DNA of 64,000 nt from Actinoalloteichus hoggarensis (GTDB lineage: Bacteria > Actinomycetota > Actinomycetes > Mycobacteriales > Pseudonocardiaceae), in NCBI RefSeq assembly GCF_002234535.1, contig NZ_CP022521.1:3844001-3908000 (forward strand), written 5' to 3'. Within the stretch, counting starts at the first letter, position 1, and each line of letters starts with the position of its first letter. Positions 14,799 through 63,583 of the stretch are shown piece by piece. The notes beneath the pieces are model-generated. The model saw only the letters and a list, made by a program, of their open reading frames with translations, was not told the origin of the DNA and did not search any database. Both the position numbers and the translations under genes were made by a program.

Positions 14799-14804
14799 CC
14801 GGAT

Positions 14805-14895: not shown

Positions 14896-14914
14896 CACGG
14901 ACCATGGTCGCGCG

Positions 14915-28632: not shown

Positions 28633-28779
28633 GGTGAGTCCCCTTCTCTCCACTTCGGCGGACCGGTCCGCCGTGGTCCTCTCACAGGGCGAGCGCCGAG
28701 CCGCCCGGTCGCGGTGGCGCGGTCGGCAGGCGGCTGTCGCCGATGGGCGTCATCGGAGTCGGCCTCGACTACGCGACGC

Positions 28780-31230: not shown

Positions 31231-32835
31231 TCAGCGCAGGTCCGCGACGACCTCACCGACGGCTGTCAGGAACTCCCCCCGGCGCAGGGCCGCAGCCACC
31301 GTCTCGATGTCGTCGCTCATGTAACGGTCCCGGTCCAGCGTCGGCACCAGCGAGCGCACGGCGTCGTAGGCCGCCATGCCCGCCGGGCCGAGCCGATCGT
31401 GCCGACCGGACACGTCCACCGCCTGTGCGGCGGCCAGATACTCCACCGCCAGTATTCGATCGTTGTTGCCGAGCACGCGGCGCGCGTTGCGCGCCGAGAT
31501 CAGCCCCATGCTGACGATGTCCTGGTTGTCCCCGTTGGACGGGACGCTCTGGGTGCTGGCCGGCCCGATCGTGCGGTTCTCGGCGACCAGCGCGGTCGCC
31601 GGGTACTGCGCGCCGGCGAACCCGCTGTTCAGGCCCGGATCGCCCGCGACGAGGAACTCGGGGAGCCCGTAGCTGAGGTGGCGGTTCAGCATGCGATTGG
31701 TCTGCCGTTCGGACAGGACACCGAGCTGTGTGAGCGCGATGGTCACGAAGTCCATGGCGAACGCGACGGGTTGACCGTGGAAGTTCGCTCCGTGGAAGAC
31801 CTCGCGGCCTTCGAAGAACAACGGATTGTCGTTGGAGGAGTTCAGTTCGATCCGCAGTGTGTCGGCCGCGCGATCGAGCGTGTCGCGGACGGCGCCCAGC
31901 ACCTGCGGGATCGCCCGCAGCGAATAGGCCTTCTGCAGGTAGAGGTCGATGCGCTCGACGGCCCCGCCCTGCCGCCGCCGAGCCACCTGCTGTCGCAGAT
32001 CGGCGTGCTCCACGGTCAGCCCGCTCCCGCGCAGTAGTGCCCGCATGTTCGCCGCTGTGTCGATCTGGCCCGGATGCGGGCGGGCGATGTCATGTCCCTC
32101 CGGCAGGAACGGGCTGGTCGATCCCCGCAATGCCTCGATGACCAGGGCCGTCACGATCTCGGCCTGTCGCACCTGGTCGAGCGCCCGGCTGACGACCAGC
32201 GAGCCGAGCCCGGTCATCGCCGAGGTGCCGTTGATCAGCGCGAGGCCTTCCTTGAACCGCAGCTCCACAGGTTCGATGCCGTGGTGCCGCAGCACCTCCG
32301 CGGTGGGCGTCGGCTGTCCGTCATGGCAGACGTAGCCCTCGCCGATCAACGTCGCGGCGATGTGTGACAGCGGAGCCAGGTCGCCGCTGGCGCCCAGCGA
32401 GCCCATCTCGGGAATGGCCGGTGTGATGCGCAGGTTCAGATACAGCGCCAGGCGTTCGAGCACCTCGGGTCGGACGGCGGAGTGTCCTTTGGCGAGTGCG
32501 TTCAGCCGTGCCGCGACGATCGCCCGGGCCTCGTCCTCGGCGAACAGCGGGCCGACGCCCGCGCTGTGACTGCGCACCAGGTTGGTCTGGAGTTCGACCT
32601 CCTTCTCGGTGCCGACCATCATGTAGATCATCTCGCCGTAACCGGTCGTCACCCCGTACACCGGGATGCCCTGCCGGACGACGTCCTCGAAGATCGCCCG
32701 GCTCTTCGCGGCGCGTGCGACGGCTTCGGGGGACACGACGCACGGCACGTGATCCTCCGCGAGTCTGCGGACGGCCGTCGGGGTGAGCTGCTCGCCGTCG
32801 AACACGACCGGTGTTTCGTCCTCATGTACGGGCAT
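31231..32835 (-). CDS. MIO-dependent tyrosine 2,3-aminomutase (SgcC4-like)
   Basis: A 534-residue member of the aromatic ammonia-lyase/aminomutase family. The MIO prosthetic group forms from Ala149-Ser150-Gly151 (GSLGASGDLAPLSH). The catalytic Tyr60 is in VYGVTTGYGEM, and His90 in LVRSHSAG lies at the position of a residue used by SgcC4. From memory the sequence is strongly similar along its length to SgcC4 of the C-1027 enediyne pathway, which converts L-tyrosine to (S)-beta-tyrosine; SgcC4 numbering is offset by three. GGAGGTAGG precedes the ATG. It lies 87 bp after the NRPS gene, apparently one operon. A tyrosine ammonia-lyase is the main alternative. Confidence 0.93.
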   Translation of the reverse strand: MPVHEDETPVVFDGEQLTPTAVRRLAEDHVPCVVSPEAVARAAKSRAIFEDVVRQGIPVYGVTTGYGEMIYMMVGTEKEVELQTNLVRSHSAGVGPLFAEDEARAIVAARLNALAKGHSAVRPEVLERLALYLNLRITPAIPEMGSLGASGDLAPLSHIAATLIGEGYVCHDGQPTPTAEVLRHHGIEPVELRFKEGLALINGTSAMTGLGSLVVSRALDQVRQAEIVTALVIEALRGSTSPFLPEGHDIARPHPGQIDTAANMRALLRGSGLTVEHADLRQQVARRRQGGAVERIDLYLQKAYSLRAIPQVLGAVRDTLDRAADTLRIELNSSNDNPLFFEGREVFHGANFHGQPVAFAMDFVTIALTQLGVLSERQTNRMLNRHLSYGLPEFLVAGDPGLNSGFAGAQYPATALVAENRTIGPASTQSVPSNGDNQDIVSMGLISARNARRVLGNNDRILAVEYLAAAQAVDVSGRHDRLGPAGMAAYDAVRSLVPTLDRDRYMSDDIETVAAALRRGEFLTAVGEVVADLR

Positions 32836-32921
32836 TGCCTACCTCCGGTTGAGACGCGGGTGACACGCCACTCGCACGTCGGCCGGGCGGCCGCCGGTGA
32901 GCGGACGTGCTCGATCCGTTG

Positions 32922-35900
32922 TCACGGCGCCGTCTGCCCGCCGTCGCGCCGAGGAGAGTCGACGGCGACCAGCGCCGCGAGTCCGCCCAGCGAGGGATCG
33001 ATGAGGAAACCCCAGAGCGGCACGGTCACGCCGAAGCGCTCTCGAACCCGCCGCAGCATCGACGGCACCAGCAGGGAGTGACCGCCGAGTGAGAAGAAGT
33101 CGTCGTCGCAGCGCATCCCGTCCGTGCCGAGCACGCCGGACCAGAGCTCGGCCAACTCCCGTTCCGTCGGGGTGCTCGGCTGTCGAGATCTCGGATGCGG
33201 CACGGGACCGCGTTGTCCGAGCCCTCGGCGGTCCACCTTGCCCGCCGCGCCGCGTGGCAGGCCGTCGACGTGGACTCGGAACGATGCCGGGATCAGCACG
33301 GCGCCGAAGCGGGTGCGCAGGTGCGCACGCCACACCTCCGGGGAGCCTGCCCGCCCCGGGACGGGGGCGACATGCAGGACGAGCCTGCTGACCAGTCCGT
33401 CCCGGTCGATCACGGGCACCGCCGCGCACTCGGCGATCGAGTCGTGCGCCGCGAGCGCGGTCTCGACCTCCGTCAACTCCACCCGATTGCCGAGCAGCTT
33501 GACCTGGAAGTCCCGCCTGCCGCGGAACTCGAGCAAGCCGTCCGGTCGGCGTCGACCCAGGTCCCCGGTTCGGTAGCAGCGCCGATCAGCTGTGGGCCGC
33601 GGCCCGCCCGCGGGCAGGCGCCGGAACACGTCCGGGCCGGCGTCGAGTTCGCCCAGATACCCCTCGGCCACGTGCGGGCCCCGGATGACGATCTCCCCGA
33701 CGACGCCGGTGGGGCACAGCCGATCCCGCTCGTCCAGGATCAGCACCTCCCGCCCGGGGATGGGGACGCCGATGGGCACGGCCCCGTGCTGGGCGTCGGC
33801 GATCTCATACCAGGTGGCCGCGATGGTCTCGGTGGGACCGTAGAGATTCACCAGTCGAGTCAGCGGGAGACCCGCCCGTAGGCTGTCGGCCAGCGCGGGC
33901 GGCAATGCCTCCCCCATCAGCAGCAGATGGCTCAGATCGGCGAGTCGTTCCGTCGAACCACTGCCGAGCACGACGGCGAGAAGTTCCCTGGCGAAGCTGG
34001 GCACCGTCTGCAGATGGGTGATGCGCTCGGACGCGAGCCAGTCCACCAGCTTCTCCGGGTGCACCCTGATCGTTTCGGGGACCGGGCACAGCGTCGCCCC
34101 GGCGACCAGTGTCGCGAAGACCTCGCACAGCGCCGGGTCGTGTTCCGGCGTCACCCATTGAGCGACCCGCGACGTGGACTCGATGCGGAACTCCTCGGCG
34201 AACCACGTCACGTACTGCGCCAAGGACCCGTGCGAGTGCGCGACGCCCTTGGGTCTGCCCGTCGAACCCGAGGTGTAGGCGATGTAGGCACGGTCGTCTC
34301 GTCCTGTCTCGGCGCGGACCGTGTCGGTCGAGGCTGCTGCCCCTCGGGCGCCGTCGTCTCGTCTGGAGAGGGCGACGACTCGGCCGGACTGCTCCGCGGC
34401 GAACCACCGCGCCAGTTCGTCGGTGTCCGGGTCGCGATCGACGAGCAGGCAGCCGGGCCGGAGGTCGGCGAGCAGCTCCCGGCCCCGCCGCCCGACCCGG
34501 CCGGGGCCCGACCACACGAGGTGCGCGCCGAGGTCCAGCACGGCGAGCAGAGCGGCGATCCGCAGCGAGCTGGTGGACATGCGCACCACCACCGCCGATC
34601 CGCGGGTCACCCCCGCCGCGCGCAGGGTGCGGCCGACGGACTCCGCCCGCTCGACCAGTTCCCGATACACCACGGGCTCGGTGGGATGGGCGACGGCGAC
34701 GGCCTCGGGTCGGGCGGCGGCCTGTCCTCGTACTCGCTCGTGCACGGGGACCTCCGACGGCGGACCGGCGTCGACGAGGTCGCCCTCGCGCAGCATCGCG
34801 CGGAGGGTGTCCTCGGAATCCATCGCGAGCTCGGCGACGGGAACGTCCGGGGCGGCCACCGCCGACCGCAGCAGGCCGCGGAACTGGTCGAGGAGAACGC
34901 GGGCGGAGCCGGGGTCGAAGAGACTCGTCCGGTATTCGATCCGCCCCGTGATCGTCGGCTCCAGGGCCTCGACGATCACCGCGAGGTCGACCGCAGCGGC
35001 GCCGGGGTGCACGGGCTCCGGGTGCACGGCGGCGCCCGCGAGGGCGAGGGTCGGCGGTGCCGCGGTGTCCCGAAGGTCGAACACGGCGTCGCACAACGGC
35101 ATCCGACGCGGGTCACGCGCCGGGTTCACCGCGCGCACGACGTCGGAGAACGGCACCTCGGCGTGGTCGACGGCCTCGGACCATCGGCGTCCGGTGGCCG
35201 AGAGCATCTGCCGGAACGTCGAGGTCGGCGAGAAGTCCGCACCGAGCACCACGGTGTTGCGCAACGCGGCGACGCGCCGGGCGTCCGCCGCGCGACGCAG
35301 CGAGATCGGCACGCCGACCGCCACTCGCTCCTGGCCGGTCACTCGGTGCAGCAACGCCAGGAGGCCCGTGTGAAGCAGGACTCGCGAAGTACTCCCGGAC
35401 CGTTCGGCGAAGGCCGACAGAGTGGCGCTGAACTCGGCGCCCCAGTCGAATCGCAGCTCGTCCCCCGCGAACGACGGCTCGGCGGGGCGCGGACGATCGG
35501 CGGGCAGGTCGAGGGGCGGCGGCGGAGGCGTCAGCGTCGTGGTCCACCAGTCGAGGAGGCGCGCCGAGTCCCGGCCGCCGTCGGAGCCGGAATCTGCGTC
35601 GTCCGGGGCGGATGCTCCGCTCGTCGTCGACGGATCGGCGGCCGACGAATCAGCGGCGGACGTGTCGCGGGCCGTTCGGCCGGCAGCCGTTCGGCGGAAC
35701 CACCGTTCCGCACGTACCACGCCGCGGGAACCCGGCGGAGCCGAACTCCTCCTCGACCCTGCGATCCCGTCGGCCGTGGTCGCCTCGGCATAGGCCGCCG
35801 AAAGATCCGCCACGAGGATCGACAGGGACTCCTCGTCCACCGCGATCCGATGCAGGGCGAGCAGCACCACGTGGTCTGTGTCGGTGAGGTGGACGACCGT

Positions 35901-36326
35901 CAGCCGAGCGGGCGGCTGCGTCGAGAGATCGAACGGCGCCGACACGGCCGCGCGGCAGGCACGCTCCGCTCGCTCCCGCCGATCCGTCGCGCCGCGACGC
36001 CGCAGATCCAGCACGGTCGGCGGGGAGTCGGACGCCACGCCGATCCGCCGAAGGACTCGGCCGTCGACGTCGATGAAGGTGCTTCGCAGCACGTCATGGC
36101 GGTCCAGCACCGACAGCCACGCGGCGCCGAGTGCCGCCGAGTCCACCGCGCCGTCCACCCGATAGCGCAGGCACAGCACGTGCGCCGCCGAGTCTGGGGC
36201 CAGCCGGTGGAGAAACCAGGACTCGTGCTCGGCGACGCCGGTCGCCGCGACCGACCGACGGCCGTCTCCGTCGGATGTCCCCGTCCCCACCGCATCCGCT
36301 TCCATGTTCGCAGTCTCGAATCCCAC
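32922..36326 (-). CDS. NRPS, degenerate C - A - T
   Basis: About 1134 residues. The N-terminal condensation domain (about 30-480) has its HHxxxDG motif altered to HRIAVDE (residues 159-165), losing the catalytic second His. The adenylation domain (about 540-1030) is complete: AYTSGSTGRPKGVAHSH, NLYGPTETIAATWY, YRTGDLGRRRPDG, and the A10 Lys in AAGKVDRRGL. Aligned by eye to GrsA, the pocket reads D-P-C-Q-L-M-L-A-A (235-331), keeping Asp235. A thiolation domain follows (DDFFSLGGHSLL, Ser near 1082). No thioesterase. Linkage to the aminomutase suggests it activates beta-tyrosine, like SgcC1. The start is a GTG; Met at 36305 is an alternative. Confidence 0.92.
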   Translation of the reverse strand: MGFETANMEADAVGTGTSDGDGRRSVAATGVAEHESWFLHRLAPDSAAHVLCLRYRVDGAVDSAALGAAWLSVLDRHDVLRSTFIDVDGRVLRRIGVASDSPPTVLDLRRRGATDRRERAERACRAAVSAPFDLSTQPPARLTVVHLTDTDHVVLLALHRIAVDEESLSILVADLSAAYAEATTADGIAGSRRSSAPPGSRGVVRAERWFRRTAAGRTARDTSAADSSAADPSTTSGASAPDDADSGSDGGRDSARLLDWWTTTLTPPPPPLDLPADRPRPAEPSFAGDELRFDWGAEFSATLSAFAERSGSTSRVLLHTGLLALLHRVTGQERVAVGVPISLRRAADARRVAALRNTVVLGADFSPTSTFRQMLSATGRRWSEAVDHAEVPFSDVVRAVNPARDPRRMPLCDAVFDLRDTAAPPTLALAGAAVHPEPVHPGAAAVDLAVIVEALEPTITGRIEYRTSLFDPGSARVLLDQFRGLLRSAVAAPDVPVAELAMDSEDTLRAMLREGDLVDAGPPSEVPVHERVRGQAAARPEAVAVAHPTEPVVYRELVERAESVGRTLRAAGVTRGSAVVVRMSTSSLRIAALLAVLDLGAHLVWSGPGRVGRRGRELLADLRPGCLLVDRDPDTDELARWFAAEQSGRVVALSRRDDGARGAAASTDTVRAETGRDDRAYIAYTSGSTGRPKGVAHSHGSLAQYVTWFAEEFRIESTSRVAQWVTPEHDPALCEVFATLVAGATLCPVPETIRVHPEKLVDWLASERITHLQTVPSFARELLAVVLGSGSTERLADLSHLLLMGEALPPALADSLRAGLPLTRLVNLYGPTETIAATWYEIADAQHGAVPIGVPIPGREVLILDERDRLCPTGVVGEIVIRGPHVAEGYLGELDAGPDVFRRLPAGGPRPTADRRCYRTGDLGRRRPDGLLEFRGRRDFQVKLLGNRVELTEVETALAAHDSIAECAAVPVIDRDGLVSRLVLHVAPVPGRAGSPEVWRAHLRTRFGAVLIPASFRVHVDGLPRGAAGKVDRRGLGQRGPVPHPRSRQPSTPTERELAELWSGVLGTDGMRCDDDFFSLGGHSLLVPSMLRRVRERFGVTVPLWGFLIDPSLGGLAALVAVDSPRRDGGQTAP

Positions 36327-36630
36327 CCAGCGGTAGTGCTTCTCTCAGAATGCGATGACCCGCACGAGCACGGTGAACTGGTCGAACATGCTTCGGAGCC
36401 GCATGATCGAGGAGGCTCGCACCGCGGATGCGTACCGGTGCCCGCCTCTCCCGGCGGCCGAGCAGGAGCACGGGCGGCGAGACGCCTCGCCCGGCTCCGG
36501 AGGCCGTTCGCACGGGGTCTTCGAAGATCGTCCGGATAGAGTGCCGTCGAGATGTCGAGAATCCGATGACTGCTTCGATCTCCTCTGTGAGAGGTGCCCG
36601 TGCCGGGGACCGGGAAGCGAGGAACGCACT
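36327..36630. promoter_or_regulatory. Divergent promoter region, NRPS operon / DGPF gene
   Basis: 304 bp between divergent starts. No separate gene is seen; an in-frame upstream extension of the DGPF gene is open here but lacks family similarity. It probably holds promoters for both units. Confidence 0.45.
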
Positions 36631-36993
36631 GTGAAGTACATGCTTTTGATCTACGGCAGCGACGACCTGTGGGCGCAGTTCTCCGAGGACGACTTCGCGA
36701 AGATGATCGAGCAGGACGCCGCCTTCCAGAAGGAGGTTCGCGAGTCCGGCGAGCTGGTGAGCGTCGAAGGCATGGCGGACCGCACCAACGCGAAGGTCGT
36801 CCGCGTCCGCGACGGCGCCCCGGTGGTGACCGATGGTCCGTATCTGGAGTCGAAGGAGCACCTCGCGAGCTACTTCGTCATCGACGTCGAAAGCCCGGAG
36901 CGGGCGATCGAACTCGCCGCGAAGTACCCCGCCTCGACGGGCAACGGCGTCGAGGTGTGGCCTCTCCTCGAACAGGGCGGCACCGAGACCTGA
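36631..36993 (+). CDS. YCII-related DGPF-domain protein
   Basis: A 120-residue small cytoplasmic protein starting VKYMLLIYG at a GTG preceded by GAGGAA. It has the family signature VVTDGPYLESKEHLASYFVIDV and the terminal GNGVEVWPL. DGPF/YCII proteins have a ferredoxin-like fold; most are uncharacterised, often near ECF sigma factors, and a few act in small-molecule metabolism. It lies 197 bp upstream of a BBE-like oxidase on the same strand. Confidence 0.88.
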   Translation: MKYMLLIYGSDDLWAQFSEDDFAKMIEQDAAFQKEVRESGELVSVEGMADRTNAKVVRVRDGAPVVTDGPYLESKEHLASYFVIDVESPERAIELAAKYPASTGNGVEVWPLLEQGGTET

Positions 36994-37190
36994 CGAGTCT
37001 CGCGCCGGGGCCGATTCGCGCCGTCGGTCCCGGCGCGAACCTGCCGCCCTGCCGCACCGCCTTCCGTGTGGCGAAACCGGTCACGAACCGTGGACGGCGG
37101 AGCAGTCGACAGCCCTTCGGTCACCGATGCGGGACACGGCGCCCGCGTTCGGGTGATCGACGCCGTGAGATGTCTACAGAGGAGAGAATC

Positions 37191-38531
37191 ATGAAAGCCG
37201 AGGAGATCGGTGCGTTGCGGGCGGCCGTCGCCGGCGACGTCGTCGGCGCCGCCGACGTCACGTACGACGAGCTGCGCAACATCTTCGTTCACCAGGGCAG
37301 GCCCGAGGTCATCGTCCGGTGTACGAGCAACGATGACGTCCGAGCCGCGATCCGGTTCGCGCTCGACCACGAGCTCGTGATCTCCGTCCGCAGCGGCGGA
37401 CACAGCAACGCGGGTTTCAGTACCAATGACGGCGGAATGGTCATCGACCTGACGCCTCTCGACCAGGTCGAGATCATCGATGCGGAGAACTCCGTGGTCC
37501 GGCTGGGCAGCGGTGCCAGATGGGGCGCGGTGGCCAGTGCCCTCGGCGAGCACGGCCTCGTGATCTCCTCCGGAGACACCTCCACGGTCGCGGTCGGCGG
37601 ACTGCTGCTCGGCGGCGGCATCGGCTGGCTGGTGCGGAAGTTCGGCCTGGCCATCGACAACGTCGTCGGCGCCGAGGTGGTCACCGCCTCGGGCGAGGTG
37701 CTGCGTGCCGACGCCGAGGAGAACCCCGAGCTCTTCTACGGCATCCGCGGCGGCAGCGGCAACTTCGGGGTCGTCACCTCCTTCGACGTCGTCGCGCAGA
37801 AGGTGCCGGGCGTGCACTTCGGCACGATCAACTACCCCGCCGACGAGACCGCGGCCGTGGTGAAGGGGTGGGCGGACTACATGCGTACGGCGCCGCCCGA
37901 GCTCACGACGACGGTGGGGGTGTTCCCTCCGTTCGACGGCGTGCCGACACCGGTGAACCTCACCGTCTGTTACGCCGGGACGGACGCGGCGGAGGCGGAG
38001 GCGGCGATCGCACCGCTCCGCCGGCTCGGCACGCTGCTGGCCGCGGACGTCAAGCCGGTGCCCTACGCGGCCGTGCTGAACGAGCCGTCGCAGCTGCCGC
38101 CCGGCTGGCAGCCGATGGTCAAGAGCAGCTTCGCACCGGTGGCCGGTCCCGAGTTCATCGACACCGTCCTGACCGGTGCCCGGCAGTTCGCGATGCTGTA
38201 CGTCGAGTTCAGGAGCATGGGCGGGGCGGTCCGCGAGGTCGCCGAGGATGCCACCGCGTTCGCCTATCGGGACGACGAGATCATGTTCTTCACCACTCAC
38301 CTCGGCGGCCCCGAGGACCATCAACGGATCGAGACCGAGTTCCGCGACTTCTGGCGGACGTTGGCACCGTTCAGCCACGGCGCCTACAGCGGATTCATGA
38401 GCGCGGTCGACGAGGACGACGTGGCCGCCATCTACCCGACGGCGACGCGCGCCCGACTCGCGGCGCTGAAGGCCGTGCACGATCCGACGAACGTGTTCCG
38501 ACTCAACCCCAACGTCAGGCCGTCCAAGTAG
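37191..38531 (+). CDS. BBE-like FAD-linked oxidase 1 (single histidyl link)
   Basis: A 446-residue oxidase of the berberine-bridge/6-hydroxynicotine oxidase class. His71 in SVRSGGHSNAGF is the expected 8-alpha-histidyl FAD attachment. The second (cysteinyl) site is replaced, with GDTSTVAVGG at 128-137, so the flavin is probably bound through one link. It also shows GGSGNFGVVTSFDV and a C-terminal NVFRLNPNV. Such enzymes oxidise alcohols, amines or activated C-H bonds using O2. GGAGAG precedes the ATG at 37191; an in-frame ATG at 37170 is less favoured. Confidence 0.9.
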   Translation: MKAEEIGALRAAVAGDVVGAADVTYDELRNIFVHQGRPEVIVRCTSNDDVRAAIRFALDHELVISVRSGGHSNAGFSTNDGGMVIDLTPLDQVEIIDAENSVVRLGSGARWGAVASALGEHGLVISSGDTSTVAVGGLLLGGGIGWLVRKFGLAIDNVVGAEVVTASGEVLRADAEENPELFYGIRGGSGNFGVVTSFDVVAQKVPGVHFGTINYPADETAAVVKGWADYMRTAPPELTTTVGVFPPFDGVPTPVNLTVCYAGTDAAEAEAAIAPLRRLGTLLAADVKPVPYAAVLNEPSQLPPGWQPMVKSSFAPVAGPEFIDTVLTGARQFAMLYVEFRSMGGAVREVAEDATAFAYRDDEIMFFTTHLGGPEDHQRIETEFRDFWRTLAPFSHGAYSGFMSAVDEDDVAAIYPTATRARLAALKAVHDPTNVFRLNPNVRPSK

Positions 38532-39080: not shown

Positions 39081-40316
39081 ATGAGTGTGGCCACGAACGC
39101 GCCGAGCGACGATCCGTCCCCGGCGGGACCGCAGCTGACCGAGGACGAGGTCGTGGCCAGAGCGGAGCGACTGGCGCGCACCCTGGTCGACCGGCAGGCC
39201 GAGACCGAGCAGCGGACCTTCTACGCCGAGGACGTCCACGAACAGTTTCGTGCGGCGGGGTTCTACCGAATCCTCGTCCCGAGGCGCTTCGGCGGTCACG
39301 AGTTCAGTGCGGAGACGTTCCTGCGGGTGTCGACGGCGCTCGCCCGAGGCTGCCCGTCCACGGGCTGGATGTACTGCCTCGGCGCCGCGCACGCGCTCGC
39401 GGCGGCGACGTTCTTCGACGAGCGCGCCCAGACCGAGCTGTTCGCGGACGGCGACTTCATCAGTCCGGCCACGATCAACCCGAGCGGCTCGGCACGGCGA
39501 GCCGACGACGGGGGTTGGATCATTCGAGGCACCTGGCCCTACTGTTCCGGCGCGCCGTACGCGACGCACTTCATCGGACACACGATCGTCGAGTCCGCCC
39601 AGGGCGCCCCGGGCACGCCGCTGCTCTTCATCATCCCGCGCAGCGGCTGGACCATGCTGAACGACTGGGGCGACCAGCTCGGTCTCCAAGGCAGCGGGTC
39701 ACACAGCATCCGGATCGACGACGCCTACGTCCCCCCGCATCACGCCTTGGAGTCGGTGCATCTGAGCGAGATGGACGTCAGTCGGGGCACCGTCGGCCGC
39801 AGGCTGCACGGCAATCCGGAGTACGGCGGCGGGCCGCTCAGTTTCATGCTGCTGGAGTCGGCGTCTCTGGCCGTCGGCATGGCGCAGGGAGCGCTGGACG
39901 CCTACGAGGAGCTGATGCGCACCCGCAAGACGATGTTCGCCGCGGTCCTGCGCGCCGAGGATCCCGACTATCAGCTCTGGTATGGCCAGGCGGGCGGCAT
40001 GATCGCCGCGGCGGAGGCGGCCGTGCGCAACGCGGCCCAACAGTGGAGCGCGGTCTGCGCGGCCGGGCCGTCGGCATTCACCCGCGAACAGGATCTGCGG
40101 ATCGCCACGATCTGCCGAGAAGTGATCCGGCTGTGCTGGCAGGCTGTCGAGGGCTATCTGTTCCGGACCGCCGGGTCCAGCTCGGTCCGGCTCGGCAGCC
40201 GCATCGAACGGGTGTGGCGGGACATGTCGACGCTGCACAGTCACGTCGGGGTCGGGGTCCTCCTCGCGTCCGTGGCGACCAGGGAGTTCACCAAGGCACG
40301 ATTCGGCGTCCGCTGA
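39081..40316 (+). CDS. Acyl-CoA-dehydrogenase-fold flavin monooxygenase-like protein 1
   Basis: A 411-residue protein of the group D flavoprotein monooxygenase/acyl-CoA dehydrogenase superfamily. The N-terminal helical domain (RAAGFYRILVPRRFGGHEFS), beta domain (GGWIIRGTWPYCSGAPYATH, LQGSGSHSIRIDDAYVPP) and C-terminal helical bundle with RTAGSSSVR are all visible. Relatives such as HsaA and KijD3 hydroxylate phenols or amines with FMNH2 from a separate reductase; no reductase gene is in the window. The substrate is unknown. GAAGGA lies about 12 bases before the ATG. Confidence 0.85.
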   Translation: MSVATNAPSDDPSPAGPQLTEDEVVARAERLARTLVDRQAETEQRTFYAEDVHEQFRAAGFYRILVPRRFGGHEFSAETFLRVSTALARGCPSTGWMYCLGAAHALAAATFFDERAQTELFADGDFISPATINPSGSARRADDGGWIIRGTWPYCSGAPYATHFIGHTIVESAQGAPGTPLLFIIPRSGWTMLNDWGDQLGLQGSGSHSIRIDDAYVPPHHALESVHLSEMDVSRGTVGRRLHGNPEYGGGPLSFMLLESASLAVGMAQGALDAYEELMRTRKTMFAAVLRAEDPDYQLWYGQAGGMIAAAEAAVRNAAQQWSAVCAAGPSAFTREQDLRIATICREVIRLCWQAVEGYLFRTAGSSSVRLGSRIERVWRDMSTLHSHVGVGVLLASVATREFTKARFGVR

Positions 40317-40537
40317 GGCGTCCGCCCCCGCGGTGTCCCGCCGCGACCGTCCGATGACGTCGCCGACCGATGGCGCCGCGAAGCGAGCGGCACGCACGTC
40401 CCTCGGTGTTCGCCGATGAGGTGCGGACCGGCCGCCGCCGCGAAGGACGTCGTGCGCCCCGGCGCGACCCGAGAACGAACCCGACGGCGGCCGACGATCC
40501 CACCGGCCGGGGCGAGGCGAGCAGGGAGGGATGAGAC

Positions 40538-43508: not shown

Positions 43509-43695
43509 CACTCCACCTCTCCATCGGGTCGTACCGGGACTTCTCCTGGGACGTCGGGGCGGTCCGCGAACTCGTGCCTCGGCGTCGGATCGGCACGGGG
43601 CCGCGGCGCGAACACGGCGGCAGAGGCCGCGCACGTCCGCCACCCCGGCGACCGACGGCGGACCGCCCGACCCGGCGGGCGCACCGACGACGCGA

Positions 43696-44433
43696 CTACG
43701 ACGACTCGACCGGGCGCTGTGGCGCCGCCTCACGCCGCTCGGTCCGATTGAGCCACCACTGGACGAGGAACACGTTGATCACCCAGCCGAGCCAGGGCGC
43801 CGTGAGCCCGATCTGCGCGAACACCGCCGGGTCGTCGATCCCGAACATCGTGAGGACGATCATGAAGACGCGACCCCACACGATGTTGATGGCGAACGCG
43901 AAACTGAACAGCATCCACCGTCGATGCTGCCGATAGCGCCGCTGCCGGGCCCGAATGAAGCCCATCGTGGTCGTGACCAGCCAGAAGACCCCGCCCAACG
44001 TCGTGCCGACACTCGGTGCGGGCGACAGCGGGGTGATCACCATGGCGATCACGGCCGAGGGCAGCGCACCGGCGAAGACGTACAGCCGCCCGCTCCAGCG
44101 GTGCACCGCCGGACGGCGGCGCCGCAGCGCAGGCCACAACTGGAGGCACACGGTCACCAGCGCCACGGTGCCGAACACGATGTGCGACACCAGCAGCGGA
44201 TAGTGGACCGCCGAGTCCTCCCGGATGACGATCAGCGAACGCGCCGGGTCCAGCGTCAGGTAGGGCGGCCAGGCGATCGCGAGGAAGGCCAGCACCACCA
44301 CGACCAGCGGAACCACCCATGGTCGTCGCCACCACCGCGGGCGCGATGCCGTCCCGCCCGCGGCGACCTCTCTCGATCCCATGGCCGGGGACCCGCCCGA
44401 ACTCGCGCCTGTCCGCTCTTCGTGCTGGGTCAT
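43696..44433 (-). CDS. DUF2306-type membrane protein
   Basis: A 245-residue protein with a polar N-terminus (about 35 residues) and six or so membrane segments (e.g. VVPLVVVVLAFLAIAW, IVFGTVALVTVCLQLWPALR, ALPSAVIAMVITPLS). VHRWSGRLYVFAG, followed later by RQHRRWMLFSFAFAINIVW, is characteristic of the DUF2306 family. Function is unknown. The conserved histidines resemble metal or haem sites in other membrane families, but this is unproven. It lies between a methyltransferase and an SDR gene. Confidence 0.82.
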   Translation of the reverse strand: MTQHEERTGASSGGSPAMGSREVAAGGTASRPRWWRRPWVVPLVVVVLAFLAIAWPPYLTLDPARSLIVIREDSAVHYPLLVSHIVFGTVALVTVCLQLWPALRRRRPAVHRWSGRLYVFAGALPSAVIAMVITPLSPAPSVGTTLGGVFWLVTTTMGFIRARQRRYRQHRRWMLFSFAFAINIVWGRVFMIVLTMFGIDDPAVFAQIGLTAPWLGWVINVFLVQWWLNRTERREAAPQRPVESS

Positions 44434-44641
44434 CGGCGTGGTTCCCTTCTCGCTGCATGCCTTTCGTGGACACGGGGCCCGGCGCCTCAGAGGAGGGCCG
44501 CATCGGAAAGACGTCGATGCGGTGTCGGCCGGGATCGATCGTCGTGGCCGGCCACCGGTGTGCGGACGCGGTCCGACCAGGCGTCACGGTAGGACGCCGC
44601 TCTCGGACGGCACAGCTCCGAGAATGCGCAGTACGGCGGCC

Positions 44642-46180
44642 TCAACGGCGACGGACGGCGGTCAGGAGGACGACGCCTCCGATGCTCGTCCGATGCGTGA
44701 TCCGCAGTCCGGCCTCGGTCAGCCAGTCGGTGATCTGCTCGTCCTCGAACAGGACGATCCCGTCGGGACTGCCGGGGAAGCTGTGCGCATGCTGGAAGTA
44801 CCGGTAGATCGGATCGCCGCCCCAGCGGAAGGTCATGAGGGTGAGCGTGCCGCCCGTACGCAGGCAACGGCCGATCTCGTGCAGGGCCGCAGCCGGGTCG
44901 GGCAGGGCCTGGAGCGCGTTCCAACAGTTCACCGCGCCGAGGGCGGCCTCCCCGAAGGGGAGCGTGAGCGCGCTGCCACGCACCGCGGCCACCCCGGGAA
45001 GCCGGCCGCGCAGCTCAGACAGCATCGGGCCGATCACGTCGAGCGCGATGACCCGTTCCTCACCGAACACCTCGGCCGCGATCGCGGTCCAACGACCGGC
45101 GCCCGCCCCGAGGTCCAGCACGGGGCCGTTCACGGCGGCGAGATGTTCGGTGAGATAGGCGTCCTCGACCGACGGCGTGACATCGCCTCCCCAGTTGGAG
45201 CCCATCACCCGGAGGAAGGCCGGTCGCAGCACCGTCTCGTAGTAGTGACCGATGCCGGTCATCCCGGTCGCGTTCTGGAGTACGTCGTCCTCGTCGGGCC
45301 GGGCATCGCCCTCCGCCAGCAGGTCGAGCACGCCCCGCGCATGTCGGTAGGCCCGCGCGCAGGACGTGCAGTGGGCGACGGCATCCGACAGCGTCAGTCG
45401 GGCGCGGCAGGTCGGGCAGCACAGCGCGTCGAGATGCCGGGCCAGAAGCCCGGTGCCGTCTGCGGGCGGTGTTGCGGCAGGCGCGGCCAGTGGGCTCACG
45501 TCGGTCACCACGGTCGGTCCGCCGTTGCGGACAGACCACAGGGCCTTGGCACCGGTGTAGGCGAGCACCGACCTGGTGTCGCTGCGCCAGGTCGCGAGAA
45601 GCTGTTCGGGAGTGAGCTGGTCGATCCAGCCCCGGTCGAAGTCCCGTTCGCTGTCGTTCAGCGACCATTCGTGCGGGGACGGCCAGACCCGGCCGAGGAC
45701 CACGTCGGCGGGGTCGAGCGTCGCGAGACAACGTCGCAGCCTCGTCGCGTCCTCCGGTGCGAGTGGGAGCCTCGCCGTAGCCGTGAGGACGCGGTCCCGG
45801 TCCTCGGGCAGGTGCGACAGCAGGTACAGCAGAGCGAACGTCAGCGGCTCGTCCTCGGCGGCGTCGTCGAGCAGCGCCAGATACCGGTCGAGCCCGCCGC
45901 GCACCGCCTGCGTCACGGGTCCGTCGACGGCGGGATACTCGGCTTCGGCGAGCAGGCCGAGCAGGATCAACAGATGACCACGCAGATCCTCGTCGACCAC
46001 ATCGAGGTGCGCGAGCAGATCCGCGGTCGCGGCCTGCGCACGCGAGGTGAGCTCGCCCTCCACCCATAACGCCCCGGTCAGTCGTAGAAACTCCTCATCA
46101 CGTGCTTCGGGCGCCGCCTCGGCGAACGATCTGATCAGATCGCGGACGGACGGTGCCACGGTGCGGGAGTCGCTCATCAC
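44642..46180 (-). CDS. Large SAM methyltransferase with zinc ribbon and N-terminal helical domain
   Basis: A 512-residue protein with three parts. An N-terminal all-helical domain (about 1-175) has no family I recognise. A four-cysteine zinc ribbon of Trm112-like type follows at about 250-285 (CCPTCRARL, HCTSCARAYRHARGVLDLL). A class I SAM methyltransferase follows at about 320-510 (VLDLGAGAGRWTAIA, ALPDPAAALHEIGRCLRTGG). The target is probably a small molecule in the cluster; a phenolic oxygen or amine of the hydroxylated aromatic unit is possible. A GGAG ribosome binding site precedes the paired ATG codons. It begins 97 bp after the solute-binding homologue. Confidence 0.85.
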   Translation of the reverse strand: MMSDSRTVAPSVRDLIRSFAEAAPEARDEEFLRLTGALWVEGELTSRAQAATADLLAHLDVVDEDLRGHLLILLGLLAEAEYPAVDGPVTQAVRGGLDRYLALLDDAAEDEPLTFALLYLLSHLPEDRDRVLTATARLPLAPEDATRLRRCLATLDPADVVLGRVWPSPHEWSLNDSERDFDRGWIDQLTPEQLLATWRSDTRSVLAYTGAKALWSVRNGGPTVVTDVSPLAAPAATPPADGTGLLARHLDALCCPTCRARLTLSDAVAHCTSCARAYRHARGVLDLLAEGDARPDEDDVLQNATGMTGIGHYYETVLRPAFLRVMGSNWGGDVTPSVEDAYLTEHLAAVNGPVLDLGAGAGRWTAIAAEVFGEERVIALDVIGPMLSELRGRLPGVAAVRGSALTLPFGEAALGAVNCWNALQALPDPAAALHEIGRCLRTGGTLTLMTFRWGGDPIYRYFQHAHSFPGSPDGIVLFEDEQITDWLTEAGLRITHRTSIGGVVLLTAVRRR

Positions 46181-46276
46181 TGCTCCTCTCTTCGGCCCGG
46201 ACGTCGGACCGAGGAAGGCCCGCGCAGCGGCTCGGCCACAGGGTGTGGCGCCGTCGGCGGCGGGCGGTCGACGGGC

Positions 46277-47677
46277 TCAGCCCACGCGGAAGTGCCGAGG
46301 ATCGATGTCCGGTCCTGCGGCGAGGCGGGCGTGGTAGTCGTCCAACAACCGCTGCGCCGCCCGCTCGGCCGAGCGGAACCGGGCGACGGGATCGGCGCCG
46401 AGCGCGAGGACGTCGTGCATCGCGTCGGTCATGACGTCCTGTGCGCCGACGAAGTCGCCGAGCAGAGCGCCGAGCGCGGCGGGCGAGCCGTCACCGGCGG
46501 CGAGCTGGTCGACCGCGACCCGGTGATGCGGGTTGGCGTCGAACCAGCCCTCGTGCCGGAGCCGCTCGTGTCCTGCCCCGGTGACGGGAATGAATCCGCT
46601 GCTTCGATGCCGAGCCGCCACGTTCTCCGGGTCCAGCATGTACAGCAGGAAGGCCAGCGCCCCGTCTCTGGTCTCCCGGTCCAGTCCCGCGGTGAGCCAT
46701 AACGAGTCGCCGCCGATGACGTTGCCCGCATAGGGCACCTCGTCGTTGTGGGGCATCCGACTCACCTCGACATCGAATCCGCCCGCTCGGCCCGCCTCGA
46801 CCATGCGTTGCGCCTCCACCGAAGTACTGAGCACCATGGCCACTCGCTGCTCGGCGAAGGCACGATGGTTCTCCACCCACGCGCGCAGGGTGTCCTCGCC
46901 TGCCGCCCGCACCCCGGTGTAGTGGTAGTGCCCGTGTCGATGCATCGTCAGCCACCACCGGACGAACGCGGTCATGGCTGGGGAGGTCAGATCGATGCGC
47001 TCCGCCCGACCCGACCTCCCGTTGTCGTGGTCGGCGAGCAGCGCGCCCTGCTGGGCCAGGGCCTGTTGGAAGACCCAGCCGTGGTTCGGCCAGCTGACCC
47101 CGCGAGCCGCGTTCGAGGGCAGCGCCTCCACCGCGGTGCAGGCGGCCTCGACTTCACGCCAGGTGGCAGGGGCGGCGGGAATGCCTGCCCGTCGGAGCAG
47201 GGTGGTGTTGGTGTACAGCAGCATCGTCGATGTCAGCGGAGGAACCGCGAACAGCTCGCCGCCGTCGGTGTAGTAGTCGCGACCGGCGGCGACCAGGTCG
47301 TCGAGCACCACCCGCTCGCCCAGAATCTCCGTCCGACCTCCGATCGCCGCCTCCACGGAGGTGAAGAGCGGTGATCCGTCGCGGGCGAGCATGTCACGGG
47401 CGAGCTGGGTGGAGGTGTAGAAATTCTGGACGATCGCGGGCGGGCGCCCCCGCCGTGCCGCTTCGGCGACCATCCGAGGCAGCACGAGGTGATCCCGGCC
47501 GTGGACGACGACTCGGTACTCGGGGTGACGAGCGGTGAACCGTTCGGCCAGTGCCCTCGTCTCGTCCAGGAACAGCGGCACGACGGGATAGTCGTTGAGC
47601 CACACCTCGATGACGACCGCCGTGCGGTCCACGTTCTGCTCGGCGTGGCCGGGATCGGGGTGAACGACGTCCTGCAT
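46277..47677 (-). CDS. Solute-binding-protein (UgpB-like) homologue without signal peptide
   Basis: A 466-residue protein of the extracellular solute-binding protein family 1 fold (LLYTNTTLLRRAGIPAAPATWREVEAACTA, VSWPNHGWVFQQAL, GGDSLWLTAG, FLLYMLDPENVAARHRSSGFIPV). The only well-supported start is the ATG at 47677 (AAGGA eight bases upstream). It gives MQDVVHPDPGHAEQNVDRTA, a hydrophilic N-terminus with no signal peptide or lipobox. No ABC permease or ATPase gene adjoins it. It would therefore be cytoplasmic. It is the first gene of a four-gene unit with a methyltransferase, membrane protein and SDR. Its role is unknown. Confidence 0.85.
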   Translation of the reverse strand: MQDVVHPDPGHAEQNVDRTAVVIEVWLNDYPVVPLFLDETRALAERFTARHPEYRVVVHGRDHLVLPRMVAEAARRGRPPAIVQNFYTSTQLARDMLARDGSPLFTSVEAAIGGRTEILGERVVLDDLVAAGRDYYTDGGELFAVPPLTSTMLLYTNTTLLRRAGIPAAPATWREVEAACTAVEALPSNAARGVSWPNHGWVFQQALAQQGALLADHDNGRSGRAERIDLTSPAMTAFVRWWLTMHRHGHYHYTGVRAAGEDTLRAWVENHRAFAEQRVAMVLSTSVEAQRMVEAGRAGGFDVEVSRMPHNDEVPYAGNVIGGDSLWLTAGLDRETRDGALAFLLYMLDPENVAARHRSSGFIPVTGAGHERLRHEGWFDANPHHRVAVDQLAAGDGSPAALGALLGDFVGAQDVMTDAMHDVLALGADPVARFRSAERAAQRLLDDYHARLAAGPDIDPRHFRVG

Positions 47678-48061
47678 GGCGATGTCCTTCGAGTCGAGCG
47701 GGACCGGCTCGGGACCGGCGTCGAGTGTCACGTCCGGATGGGGGCGTAGGCGGTCGATCACCGATCCTGCCCAGCGCAGCGATGGCCCACATCTCCACGA
47801 ATGCGGTGTCGGGCGGCGGACGCGGCAGAAGACCCGGACCGGTCCGTCGCCCTGATGTCCCGACGGTGACCGGCCCTGACTCGCGCGAAGCGAGAACGCA
47901 CGGCCTCGACCGGGGAGACGCCGCACGCTCGAAGGGGATCGGGCCGTCGCGTGCTGTCAGGATCGGATGTCGCGGCGAAGGTCGACGATGATGCACGGCC
48001 CCACCGCCCCACCCCCACCACCGACGCGGCAGCGAGCGACGCGGGAAGGTGACGAGGTCTG
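47678..48061. promoter_or_regulatory. Divergent promoter region, solute-binding homologue / hydroxylase operon
   Basis: A 384-bp shared region between two divergent biosynthetic units. No small gene is credible here. Promoter boxes are not distinct enough to call. Confidence 0.45.
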
Positions 48062-49720
48062 ATGGCCGATCAGCACGACAGCCGGGAGAACGAGCACGGA
48101 GCGGGCTCGAGCACCCGCCCCATGACGGGTGAGGAGTACGTCGACAGCCTGCGCGACGACCGCGAGGTCTACCTCTACGGGGAGCGCGTCGAGGACGTCA
48201 CCACGCATCCGGCCTTCCGCAATCCCGTCCGAATGACGGCCCGCCTGTACGACGCCCTGCACGACCCAGCACGACGGTCGGTGCTCACCACCGCGACGGA
48301 CTCCGGCGGCGACGGCTACACGCATCGGTTCTTCACCACACCGCACAGCGCGGCCGACCTCGTCGCCGATCAGCGGGCGATAGCGGAATGGTCCCGTCTC
48401 AGCTACGGCTGGATGGGTCGCTCTCCCGACTACAAGGCGTCCTTCCTCGGCACGCTGGGCGCCAACGCCGACTTCTACGAGCCGTTCGCGGACAACGCAC
48501 GACGGTGGTACCGCGAGGCACAGGAGAAGGTCCTGTACTGGAACCATGCCATCGTTCATCCGCCGGTGGACCGGCATCGCCCGCCCGACGAGGTCGCCGA
48601 CGTGTTCATCCACGTCGAGAAGGAGACCGACGCGGGTCTGATCGTCAGCGGCGCGAAGGTCGTCGCGACGGCGTCCGCGATCACCCATCACAACTTCATC
48701 GCCCACTACGGACTGCCGATCAAGGAGCGGCGGTTCGCGCTGATCGCGACGGTGCCGATGGCGGCGGCGGGCGTGAAGCTGATCTGCCGGACGTCCTACG
48801 CGGCCACGGCCGCGGTGATGGGCAGCCCGTTCGACCACCCGCTGTCCTCCCGCCTGGATGAGAACGACACCATCCTGGTGCTGGACCGGGTCCTGATCCC
48901 CTGGGAGAACGTGTTCGTCTACGGCGATCTCGGCAAGGTGCAGATGTTCACCGCGCGTTCCGGTTTCCCGGAGCGCTTCACCTTCCACGGCTGCACGCGG
49001 CTGGCGGTCAAGCTGGAGTTCCTCGCAGGCCTGCTCGCCAAGGCGTTGGAGCTGACCGGCACCCGGGACTTCCGAGGAGTGCAGACTCGTCTCGGCGAGG
49101 TCCTCGCCTGGCGGAACCTGTTCTGGGGACTGTCCGACGCCGCCGCACGCAATCCCGTGCCGTGGCGCAACGGCTCCGTGCTGCCCAACCCGGAGTACGG
49201 CATGGCCTACCGCTGGTTCATGCAGCTCGGCTACCCGAGGATCAAGGAGATCATCCAACAGGACGTCGCCGGGGGGCTCATCTACCTCAACTCCAGTGCG
49301 GAGGACTTCAAGAACCCGGAGATCCGGCCGTATCTGGACCGCTATCTGCGCGGTTCCGACGGATCCGACGCGGTCCAGCGCGTCAAGGTGATGAAGCTGC
49401 TGTGGGACGCCGTCGGCAGCGAGTTCGGCGGCAGGCATGAGCTGTACGAGCGCAACTACGCGGGCAACCACGAGAACACGCGGATCGAACTGCTCTCCGC
49501 CCAGACGGTGAACGGCCGGATCGACGACTACAAGGCCTTCGTCGACGCCTGTCTCGAGGAGTACGACCTGGACGGCTGGACGGTGCCGGACCTGTCCTCG
49601 TTCGACGAGCTGCGCCGTATCCGGCACGACACGCTCACCGGTGGACGGTCGAACTCCGGTGAGCGCCCCCACCCCGCAGGCTTCGAGCAGAGCCGCGTCG
49701 ACGAGAAGGAGATCGGATGA
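48062..49720 (+). CDS. HpaB-family flavin-dependent hydroxylase (SgcC-like)
   Basis: A 552-residue two-component monooxygenase of the 4-hydroxyphenylacetate 3-hydroxylase class. Recognisable stretches: [61 protein letters not shown] and [15 protein letters not shown]. The family uses FADH2 and O2 to hydroxylate ortho to a phenol OH. SgcC of C-1027 acts on carrier-bound beta-tyrosine; here the stop codon overlaps the start of a carrier-protein gene, supporting the same substrate form. The reductase partner is not in the window. GAGG precedes the ATG. Confidence 0.93.
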
Positions 49721-49989
49721 GCGGCGAAGGGGTCGAGGAGTCCCGGGCCACCGAGATCGCGCACCGGGTCGGGGCGATCTGGCGCGATGTGCTCGGTGCG
49801 GACACGCAGGCCACGTTCTTCGAACTGTCGGGTCAGTCGATCTCCGCCGTGCGGATCGCGGCGCGGATCGAGGACGAACTGGGCATCACCGTGGACATCG
49901 GTGAACTCTTCGAGGACCCGACCGGCGAGGCGTTCGCCCGCGCGGTCGCGGCGCGGGCGGCCGAGGCGCCGAGCGACCGACAGCACTGA
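49717..49989 (+). CDS. Free-standing peptidyl carrier protein (SgcC2-like)
   Basis: A 90-residue acyl/peptidyl carrier. The phosphopantetheine site is the second Ser of [20 protein letters not shown] (about residue 37), a variant of the usual GGHS. The following helix and [10 protein letters not shown] fit the PCP fold. The ATG overlaps the hydroxylase stop codon in ATGA, implying translational coupling. It is expected to hold the beta-tyrosyl thioester during hydroxylation and transfer, as SgcC2 does. Who loads it is open, since the NRPS has its own T domain. Confidence 0.92.
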
Positions 49990-50069
49990 TACGGCCGCTG
50001 GACAGCCGTCGCTTCAGCACACGGTGGTCGCCGAGGACCTCCCGGCGGCCGGACGAGGACGGGATCGCG

Positions 50070-51446
50070 ATGAGCATCTCCAGGACGACACGTCCGCAGA
50101 CGGGTCCGTTCGAGGACCGAGTTCCCCTGTCGGTGCAGCAGGAGTTCCTCTGCATGTGGGACAAGGGCGACGAGATGGGCCCCTTCGGCCCGAGCTACCA
50201 CATCGTGGACGGCTGGCGGCTGCACGGGGCGGTGGACGTCGAGGCCCTCAGAGCCGCCCTCGACGACGTGGTGGCCCGACACGAGGCACTGCGCACGATC
50301 ATCCAGCGCGAAGGCGAGCGGTGTCAGCGGATCCATCCGCCGAGTTCACCGGAGCTGACGGTGCTCGACCTTCCCGGGGGCGAGGCGTCCCGCGAACAGC
50401 GAGCCGAGGAGCTGCTCAACGAGCTCGCCGCGGGATCGTCGAACGCACGTCGCCTCCCGCTGCTGCGCGCTGTGCTGGGTCGCTTCGACGCGCGGGACGC
50501 GGTGCTGGCCCTCGTCGCTCACCACACCGCGGTGGACGCCTGGTCGATGCAGGTGATCATGCGTGATCTGATCCGCTGCCATGCGGCACGGGCGGCGGGC
50601 ACCGAACCAGACCTGCCGCCCGCGACGCAGTACCGGGAGTACACCCGCAGGCAACGGGACGGCGGACGCCGCGCGGACTCCGCCTCCGTCCGACAGTTCT
50701 GGCGGGAGACGTTGCGGGGCGGGCACGCCTTGGCCCTGCCCACGGACCGGGCACGCTCGGCCGAACCGGTGTTCTCCACCGCCTGGTATCGCTTCGCGTT
50801 CGGCCCCGAACTCGCGGCGGCGACCGAACGGACCGCCGTCGCGCTGCGGAGCTCGCCGTTCATGGTGCTCCTGGCCGCGTTCGCCGTCCTCGTCCGCCAC
50901 ACGACGGGCGCGACCGATGTCGTGATCCCGACTTTCACACCCGGCCGCGATCAGGCACGTTTCCACGACGCGGTCGGCTCGTTCTTCAACTGCCTGCCGA
51001 TCAGGGTGGACCTCCGTGACTGCCGTAGCTTCCTGGACGTGGTCGCCGAGACCAGAGCACGCGCTCTGCGTGCCTATTCGCACGAGATCCCCCTGATGGA
51101 TGTGATCGCCGAGGTTCCCGACCTGATGAGTCGAACCCAGGTCGACGGGCTCGCCTCCTGTGTGTTCCAGGTGATCCAGACACCGCACACCATGCGGTCG
51201 GAGCAGGTCGGCGACGTGACGGTCTCGGCCATCCGCCGGAAGACGCTGTCGCAGGCGAAGGGATCGGACATCCCCGACGGACTGCTGTTATGTCTGGAAC
51301 TCGATCCCGCAGGGGGTCTCATCGGCGAGCTGGGTTACAGCCGGAATCTGTACGACCTGGCCACGGTGCGCGGCCTGACCTCCCGGCTGGAGGCTCTGCT
51401 TTCCCGGTTGCTCGGCGACCCGGCCGCGCCGATCGACGGGGGATGA
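50070..51446 (+). CDS. Free-standing condensation enzyme (SgcC5-like)
   Basis: A 458-residue stand-alone NRPS condensation domain. The active-site motif is LVAHHTAVDAWSMQ, retaining both His and the Asp but with Ala for Gly, and DVVIPTFTPGRDQARFHDAVGSFFN follows. From memory the N-terminal half (SVQQEFLCMWDKGDEMGPFG) closely matches SgcC5, which joins the carrier-bound 3-chloro-5-hydroxy-beta-tyrosine to the enediyne core as an ester. Here it probably makes an ester or amide between a hydroxy-beta-tyrosyl carrier thioester and an acceptor. It lies 80 bp downstream of the carrier gene. Confidence 0.93.
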   Translation: MSISRTTRPQTGPFEDRVPLSVQQEFLCMWDKGDEMGPFGPSYHIVDGWRLHGAVDVEALRAALDDVVARHEALRTIIQREGERCQRIHPPSSPELTVLDLPGGEASREQRAEELLNELAAGSSNARRLPLLRAVLGRFDARDAVLALVAHHTAVDAWSMQVIMRDLIRCHAARAAGTEPDLPPATQYREYTRRQRDGGRRADSASVRQFWRETLRGGHALALPTDRARSAEPVFSTAWYRFAFGPELAAATERTAVALRSSPFMVLLAAFAVLVRHTTGATDVVIPTFTPGRDQARFHDAVGSFFNCLPIRVDLRDCRSFLDVVAETRARALRAYSHEIPLMDVIAEVPDLMSRTQVDGLASCVFQVIQTPHTMRSEQVGDVTVSAIRRKTLSQAKGSDIPDGLLLCLELDPAGGLIGELGYSRNLYDLATVRGLTSRLEALLSRLLGDPAAPIDGG

Positions 51447-63563: not shown

Positions 63564-63583
63564 GACCGGCGCCCTGGCCGGTC
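63564..63583. terminator. Hairpin between convergent genes
   Basis: GACCGGC and GCCGGTC form a 7-bp stem with a 6-base loop, between BBE oxidase 3 and the acyltransferase gene, just overlapping the latter's stop codon. No T-tract. Confidence 0.45.

Follow-up and report, generated by a model that had tools for sequence, protein, structure and literature searches.

In the C-1027 paradigm of enediyne biosynthesis, beta-tyrosine is made and activated, undergoes hydroxylation while bound to a carrier protein and is then passed on to the enediyne core. The iterative enediyne polyketide synthases (PKSs) show the order ketosynthase (KS), acyltransferase (AT), acyl carrier protein (ACP), ketoreductase (KR) and dehydratase (DH), followed by a C-terminal phosphopantetheinyl transferase (PPTase), with DUF1702 and UnbV proteins as conserved partners of the PKS cassette. 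Here we analyzed a beta-tyrosine cassette of the C-1027 type in a stretch of 64,000 nucleotides from Actinoalloteichus hoggarensis, bases 3844001-3908000 of a single contig of 6,606,717 bases, and this whole stretch is called the window. The window very probably carries the left, peripheral half of an enediyne biosynthetic cluster of about 60 kb, which in window coordinates extends from about 31 to about 93 kb and is probably of the 9-membered type. The genes are real and the biochemical reading given to them in the initial annotation, made from the letters of the window alone, is correct, but its claim about the scaffold is wrong, and the cluster is cut by the window edge. The pathway is new, but of a familiar kind, an ordinary enediyne antibiotic gene cluster. 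A. hoggarensis DSM 45943 has one circular chromosome, and Table 5 of PMC5676828 lists a ‘T1pks, Enediyne’ cluster for it, which we infer to be the present locus. That paper was the only one found in a literature search on hoggarensis and enediyne, while no paper came up in searches for a beta-tyrosine aminomutase with an enediyne PKS or for SgcC1, SgcC4 and SgcC5 in combination.

The genes of the cassette, together with the PKS, the thioesterase and the flavin reductase found in the right flank (numbered from the window end), are as follows:

31231..32835, minus strand, tyrosine 2,3-aminomutase of the 4-methylideneimidazole-5-one (MIO) type, SgcC4-like (TIGR03832, PDB matches, tree)
32922..36326, minus strand, nonribosomal peptide synthetase (NRPS), SgcC1-like, 1134 aa, with degenerate condensation, adenylation and carrier domains and a putative GTG start (Pfam, 12-row alignment)
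48062..49720, plus strand, HpaB-type two-component hydroxylase, SgcC-like (Pfam, PDB)
49717..49989, plus strand, free peptidyl carrier protein, SgcC2-like, 90 aa, with LSGQSI (PP-binding, E 5.2e-12)
50070..51446, plus strand, free condensation enzyme, SgcC5-like, with HHTAVDA (E 8e-58, PDB)
right flank 8567-9193, flavin reductase
right flank 9120-9590, thioesterase, 156 aa, one base from the PKS (PDB)
right flank 9592-15786 (window coordinates 73592-79786), minus strand, PKS, 2064 aa, KS-AT-KR-DH (Pfam)

The Sgc names of the cassette genes are those we take to apply, whereas SgcJ (below) is part of the name of the matched family. All five open reading frames that the initial annotation had assigned to beta-tyrosine metabolism lie where it had placed them, so that every part of a C-1027-type beta-tyrosine arm was found, from the aminomutase and the adenylation enzyme to the hydroxylase, the free carrier and the free condensation enzyme. 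Their family and structure scores are far beyond chance, and a cassette for beta-tyrosine activation, hydroxylation and transfer is backed by family models, solved-structure matches and a tree.

With TIGR03832, the model for tyrosine 2,3-aminomutases, the MIO enzyme scored 957 bits (cut-off 501), and the next NCBIfam models were histidine ammonia-lyases with 533 and 531 bits. Its best PDB matches were the tyrosine aminomutase entries 2rjr, 2ohy and 2qve (2rjr E 4e-262; 2rjr/2ohy E about 1e-262), followed by AdmH at E 1e-102. It retains the Ala-Ser-Gly that forms the MIO, as well as the YGVTTGYGEM loop and NLVRSHSAGVG, and is 78% identical to the copy of S. globisporus JCM 4378, whose cluster we take to be the C-1027 cluster. 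A tree of 60 rows (the window enzyme, 55 of 80 loci and four MIO proteins from the same genome or genus, with no named reference lyases) placed the enzyme in a clade of 22 rows (support 100/100) that also takes in the A. fjordicus copy and each of the 20 close loci described below, although the nearest neighbours inside this clade are weakly resolved. The second MIO enzyme of the A. hoggarensis genome fell into a separate clade. The family model, the structure matches and the joint clade with the S. globisporus copy thus agree with the earlier reading of the enzyme as a beta-tyrosine-type aminomutase.

The condensation domain of the NRPS carries HRIAVDE where HHxxxDG is expected, and the HH form of the motif was seen in none of the 12 aligned NRPS rows, comprising the window protein and 11 relatives, three of which are short gene calls (528, 667 and 790 aa) that possibly lack the domain. 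The free condensation enzyme, with HHTAVDA in the window and HHTAADA in S. globisporus, is therefore the likely catalyst instead of the NRPS condensation domain, as judged from these motifs, and its best PDB match is 4znm, presumably SgcC5. The NRPS is 47% identical to its S. globisporus homologue. A C-terminal carrier domain with an intact Ser was found in the window NRPS and four relatives of the same alignment, while the S. globisporus NRPS has none, and since this domain stands beside a free carrier protein, both carriers could be loaded. The hydroxylase gave Pfam E-values of 1.8e-91 and 5.7e-75, a best PDB match to 4oo2, which we take to be SgcC, and identities of 75% to the S. globisporus homologue and 84% to that of Streptomyces sp. 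H27-S2. With NCBIfam HpaB-2 it reached 693 bits, under the curated cut-off of 885, which marks it as a relative of HpaB that falls outside this equivalog. By analogy with C-1027, it would perform 3-hydroxylation of carrier-bound beta-tyrosine.

The initial annotation had described the cassette as being without an enediyne PKS, which is true of the window only because the window stops 9.6 kb too early, the 2064-aa PKS beginning 9.6 kb to its right. A genome-wide ketosynthase search gave 38 matches, one of which, at 3922659-3923519, falls in a frame of 2091 aa and lies 14.7 kb past the window end, and extension to the right of 64 kb, as had been proposed, revealed the PKS and its partner genes at about 65-93 kb, the kind of adjacent cassette that, by the initial annotation's own statement, would make this an ordinary enediyne locus. 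Over 96% of its length, the PKS shares 55% identity with that of S. globisporus and, again over 96%, 64% with that of A. caeruleus (54-64% over 96% with the PKSs of three other enediyne clusters), and DynE8 fragments are among its PDB matches, while the Pfam scan, the only one made for these parts, gave no match for the ACP and PPTase. The best PDB match of the adjoining thioesterase is the ACP-polyene thioesterase 4i4j, then CalE7, with DynE7 also matched. Near the PKS, Pfam recognized a GMC oxidoreductase and members of the DUF1702 (two proteins), UnbV and DUF5987 families, and an epoxide hydrolase and an SgcJ/EcaC-family protein lie there as well. An iterative-type PKS, a thioesterase adjoining it and the DUF1702 and UnbV partners, hallmarks of enediyne clusters, are thus present. 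In PMC5181780, the rule given for 9-membered enediynes is an E2-type gene present and R3 absent; the two DUF1702 genes, assigned at the level of the family and not of the E2 or E3 subfamily, and the epoxide hydrolase would be compatible with the 9-membered type.

A scan of a species-genome collection for the aminomutase, in which the own or very near genomes may be omitted, was followed through the best 80 of 592 confirmed loci, and it revealed 20 relatives at 67-79% identity, after which the identity falls to 43% or less. DUF1702 served as a stand-in for the PKS cassette, the PKS itself being looked for in 15 of these 20 genomes only within the stretches compared. It was detected in 18 of the 20 genomes (5/5 and 13/15) and in none of 14 control genomes; the count is per genome, whether or not the gene shares a contig with the aminomutase. 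For the 38 genes called from 31 to 93 kb, relatives, accepted at ≥40% identity and ≥40% query coverage, numbered 30 in H27-S2, 26 in M. foliorum, 19 in S. globisporus, 17 in A. caeruleus and 16 in S. verrucosisporus, and these are lower bounds, since the compared stretches were 46 to 100 kb. In H27-S2 and in M. foliorum, a single contig carries relatives of genes lying to the left and to the right of the window edge.

Sequence analysis thus establishes the gene identities, their co-location, their conservation in other enediyne clusters and the key motifs of the aminomutase, condensation enzyme and carriers. Several observations weigh against the assignment to an enediyne cluster. Among the 25 NCBIfam models listed for the PKS, out of 102 that matched, not one passed its cut-off, the best having 558 bits where 1740 are needed. 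The best PKS match in M. foliorum is only 30% identical (60 kb of the contig compared), and that of H27-S2 covers 44% of the query PKS as called. The free condensation enzyme is merely 46% identical to its S. globisporus counterpart, so the acceptor could differ. Lastly, two of the 20 genomes, Streptomyces sp. WMMB 322 and S. diastatochromogenes, gave no DUF1702 match (their assemblies may be incomplete), and the aminomutase alone is therefore no proof of an enediyne.

In the proposed pathway, the aminomutase would convert L-tyrosine to beta-tyrosine, which the adenylation domain of the NRPS would activate and load onto a carrier protein, where the tethered unit would be hydroxylated by the HpaB-type enzyme aided by the flavin reductase. 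The free condensation enzyme would then link the hydroxylated unit to the enediyne core, which would be supplied by the PKS-thioesterase pair (right flank 9120-15786) and tailored by neighbouring oxidases, an epoxidase-like enzyme and the epoxide hydrolase. These steps, including the substrates, the bond formed, the ring size and the final product, are put forward by analogy with the C-1027 pathway.

At the left edge of the cluster, where the border is not fixed and about 31 kb was used as the limit, the following genes were found:

20304-22073, major facilitator superfamily (MFS) exporter, with relatives of 42-56% in 8 of 17 compared loci
26992-28653, benzoate-CoA-ligase-like enzyme (Pfam cut-off passed; best NCBIfam 332 bits, cut-off 375)
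28780-29694, arylamine N-acetyltransferase-fold protein (Pfam cut-off passed, curated NCBIfam cut-off not)
30155-31033, tryptophan 2,3-dioxygenase (Pfam cut-off passed, curated NCBIfam cut-off not)

The exporter matches the same proteins as a second one at 57109-58746, so that the left border is not fixed by it. The three enzymes would allow an enediyne with two arms, one of hydroxy-beta-tyrosine and the other an anthraniloyl-like arm made from tryptophan, which we consider unlikely. At first, the existence of another copy at 6.30 Mb, followed by a kynureninase, favoured the dioxygenase as a cluster gene, and the other two genomes of the genus hold dioxygenase matches of 35-38% only. The best NCBIfam model of the ligase is the benzoate-CoA ligase family, although below its cut-off, and the CB03578 enediyne cluster is described with tryptophan-degradation, activation and condensing enzymes, from which an anthranilate-like arm was inferred (PMC5181780). 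This view was later weakened by an order-wide search and by six dioxygenase neighbourhoods: 80 of 397 genomes of the order, own genome included, hold a dioxygenase match at E ≤1e-50, many with 50-58% identity, and none of the six neighbourhoods (18-19 kb) matched PKS, thioesterase, DUF1702 or UnbV genes. One of them (L169) pairs the dioxygenase with an AMP ligase 35% like that of the window, which suggests ordinary catabolism. Moreover, dioxygenase or acetyltransferase relatives were found in none of the 20 close aminomutase loci within the stretches compared, nor in longer stretches of five of them, nor in the A. fjordicus cluster region; the dioxygenase and acetyltransferase are under their curated NCBIfam cut-offs; and no kynureninase is among the window genes scanned. 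The fuller product, an unchlorinated, apoprotein-free 9-membered enediyne with a hydroxy-beta-tyrosine arm and an anthraniloyl-type arm from a cluster-borne dioxygenase, aryl-CoA ligase and N-acetyltransferase-fold acyl transferase, is slightly less probable again.

The initial annotation had proposed that the hydroxy-beta-tyrosyl unit is attached to a different, non-enediyne scaffold, in favour of which one may cite the lack of a PKS within the 64-kb window and the two Streptomyces genomes where a close aminomutase occurs but DUF1702 gave no match. This was not borne out and is now very improbable, as an enediyne-type PKS cassette adjoins on the same chromosome 9.6 kb to the right, and the genes flanking the window edge have their relatives on one contig in H27-S2 and M. 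foliorum. Weakest of all is an ammonia lyase that would make the cassette a supplier of a coumarate-like acid, for although the fold is common to MIO lyases and mutases and the histidine ammonia-lyase subfamily model PRK09367 is also passed (533 bits, cut-off 524), TIGR03832 stands far above the histidine lyase models, the top PDB matches are tyrosine aminomutases with AdmH well behind, and the tree joins the enzyme to the S. globisporus aminomutase. With the enediyne cluster retained as the preferred reading, a misleading lead is corrected, and the beta-tyrosine cassette here is no evidence of a new scaffold.

Two further observations were made on aminomutase loci elsewhere. The loci of WMMB 322 (L032:9971-15250) and S. 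diastatochromogenes (L035:3294-6303) encode an aminomutase of 75-76% identity with an intact Ala-Ser-Gly, followed by a short AMP-binding protein; they are candidates for beta-tyrosine outside enediynes and better places to seek it on a non-enediyne scaffold. A locus in a metagenome-assembled genome (MAG) of Ktedonobacteraceae (Chloroflexota) holds a pair of aminomutase (67%) and HpaB (66-69%) relatives, with DUF1702 genes in the MAG, and the cassette may thus reach beyond Actinomycetota, if the binning is right.

Of the PKS, halogenase and sugar genes that the initial annotation had found missing from the window, the PKS lies just outside it, and no halogenase, sugar-nucleotide or glycosyltransferase family was found among the window and flank genes scanned with Pfam, a scan that took in most, not every, open reading frame. 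Matches to PF04820 in the genome lie at 0.54 and 2.31 Mb only. No protein of 350-650 aa with both WxWxIP and GxGxxG, which we take to be flavin-halogenase motifs, was detected in the window cluster by a motif scan that diverged enzymes may escape, while 4 of the 18 clusters or loci covered by the scan, including S. globisporus and A. caeruleus, have such a protein. Two halogenase leads came to nothing. The own-genome PF04820 match was tried as a probe in a reading frame that lacked the motif and was probably the wrong one, and it gave a single match in a Micromonospora phaseoli locus; and the right-flank protein at 4381-6075 has the epoxidase-type monooxygenases Lsd18/LasC and MonCI as its closest solved relatives. 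The neocarzinostatin-family apoprotein, PF00960, had no match in the whole genome, nor in the control genomes; the model recognises the S. globisporus apoprotein, the genome-wide search not having been applied to the S. globisporus genome. The lack of a halogenase motif, apoprotein and sugar family suggests that the cluster product would be unchlorinated and without sugar. This type strain has been sequenced, and its enediyne cluster looks complete; with neither a halogenase nor an apoprotein found, a non-chlorinated relative of known enediynes may be obtained from it.

The remaining genes of the cluster inside the window were assigned by Pfam, with their relatives in other loci:

36594..38531, plus strand, flavin adenine dinucleotide (FAD)-linked oxidase (FAD_binding_4), start uncertain, 60% relative in the H27-S2 cluster
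39081..40316, plus strand, acyl-CoA-dehydrogenase-fold flavin enzyme, HsaA model below cut-off, 69% relative in H27-S2
40538..41917, plus strand, FAD-linked oxidase, 67% relative in a Sphaerisporangium locus
42726..43733, minus strand, short-chain dehydrogenase, 68% in H27-S2 and 64% in M. foliorum
43696..44433, minus strand, DUF2306 membrane protein, 66% in H27-S2
44642..46180, minus strand, S-adenosylmethionine methyltransferase domain with a long N-terminal extension, 59% in H27-S2
46277..47926, minus strand, extracellular solute-binding protein, relatives of 44-56% in four other loci
53043..54059, minus strand, zinc-type alcohol dehydrogenase, 71% in H27-S2
55493..56890, minus strand, acyl-CoA-dehydrogenase-fold flavin enzyme, 57-68% in 6 of 17 compared loci
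57109..58746, plus strand, MFS exporter, 44-56% in 8 of 17 compared loci
58974..60089, minus strand, serine hydrolase of beta-lactamase/esterase fold, 63% in H27-S2 and 62% in M. foliorum
60565..63516, plus strand, BBE-type flavin oxidase in the C-terminal half of the frame, 65-66% over about half of it
63582..64000, minus strand, acyltransferase-3 gene, continuing beyond the window to 64859

One might guess that the methyltransferase methylates the aryl unit. For the serine hydrolase, all 25 NCBIfam models listed stayed below their cut-offs, and the true start of the BBE-type oxidase is probably far downstream of the called TTG. To the left, at window 22153-23262, lies a possible regulator, an extracytoplasmic function (ECF) sigma factor with a SnoaL-like C-terminal domain, 57% identical to a protein of a Micromonospora locus (L031).

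Among the named clusters, that of CB03578, compared by its description in PMC5181780 only, resembles the window cluster in its enzymes for tryptophan degradation, activation and condensation and differs in being listed with an apoprotein gene and outside the beta-amino-acid clusters. Within the genus, the aminomutases of A. caeruleus DSM 43889 and A. fjordicus are 76-78% identical, and the A. caeruleus PKS and core genes reach 64-85%. However, A. caeruleus has relatives at ≥40% for only 5 of the 16 called window genes at 36-60 kb, with a sixth (the carrier protein) found by tblastn, and it carries a halogenase-motif protein, a kind of protein not detected in the window cluster. The region around the A. 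fjordicus aminomutase (76%) has few other genes in common with the window. Table 5 of PMC5676828 lists maduropeptin and enediyne clusters for both species, and the aminomutase could belong to either.

The highest number of shared genes was observed with the uncharacterised enediyne cluster of H27-S2. It differs in gene order and, over the 100 kb compared of its 152-kb contig, shows no relative of the dioxygenase or of the N-acetyltransferase-fold protein, while its 30 relatives include the methyltransferase, both acyl-CoA-dehydrogenase-fold enzymes, the short-chain and alcohol dehydrogenases and the beta-lactamase-fold enzyme, and a halogenase-motif protein was found in neither cluster. S. globisporus JCM 4378 differs in having a PF00960 apoprotein gene on the contig and a halogenase-motif protein, neither of which was found for the window cluster, and in an NRPS without the C-terminal carrier domain. 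It shares with the window an NRPS without the HHxxxDG motif, an aminomutase (78%), an HpaB-type hydroxylase (75%), a PKS (55%), a GMC oxidoreductase (77%), an epoxide hydrolase (68%) and a free condensation enzyme (46%).

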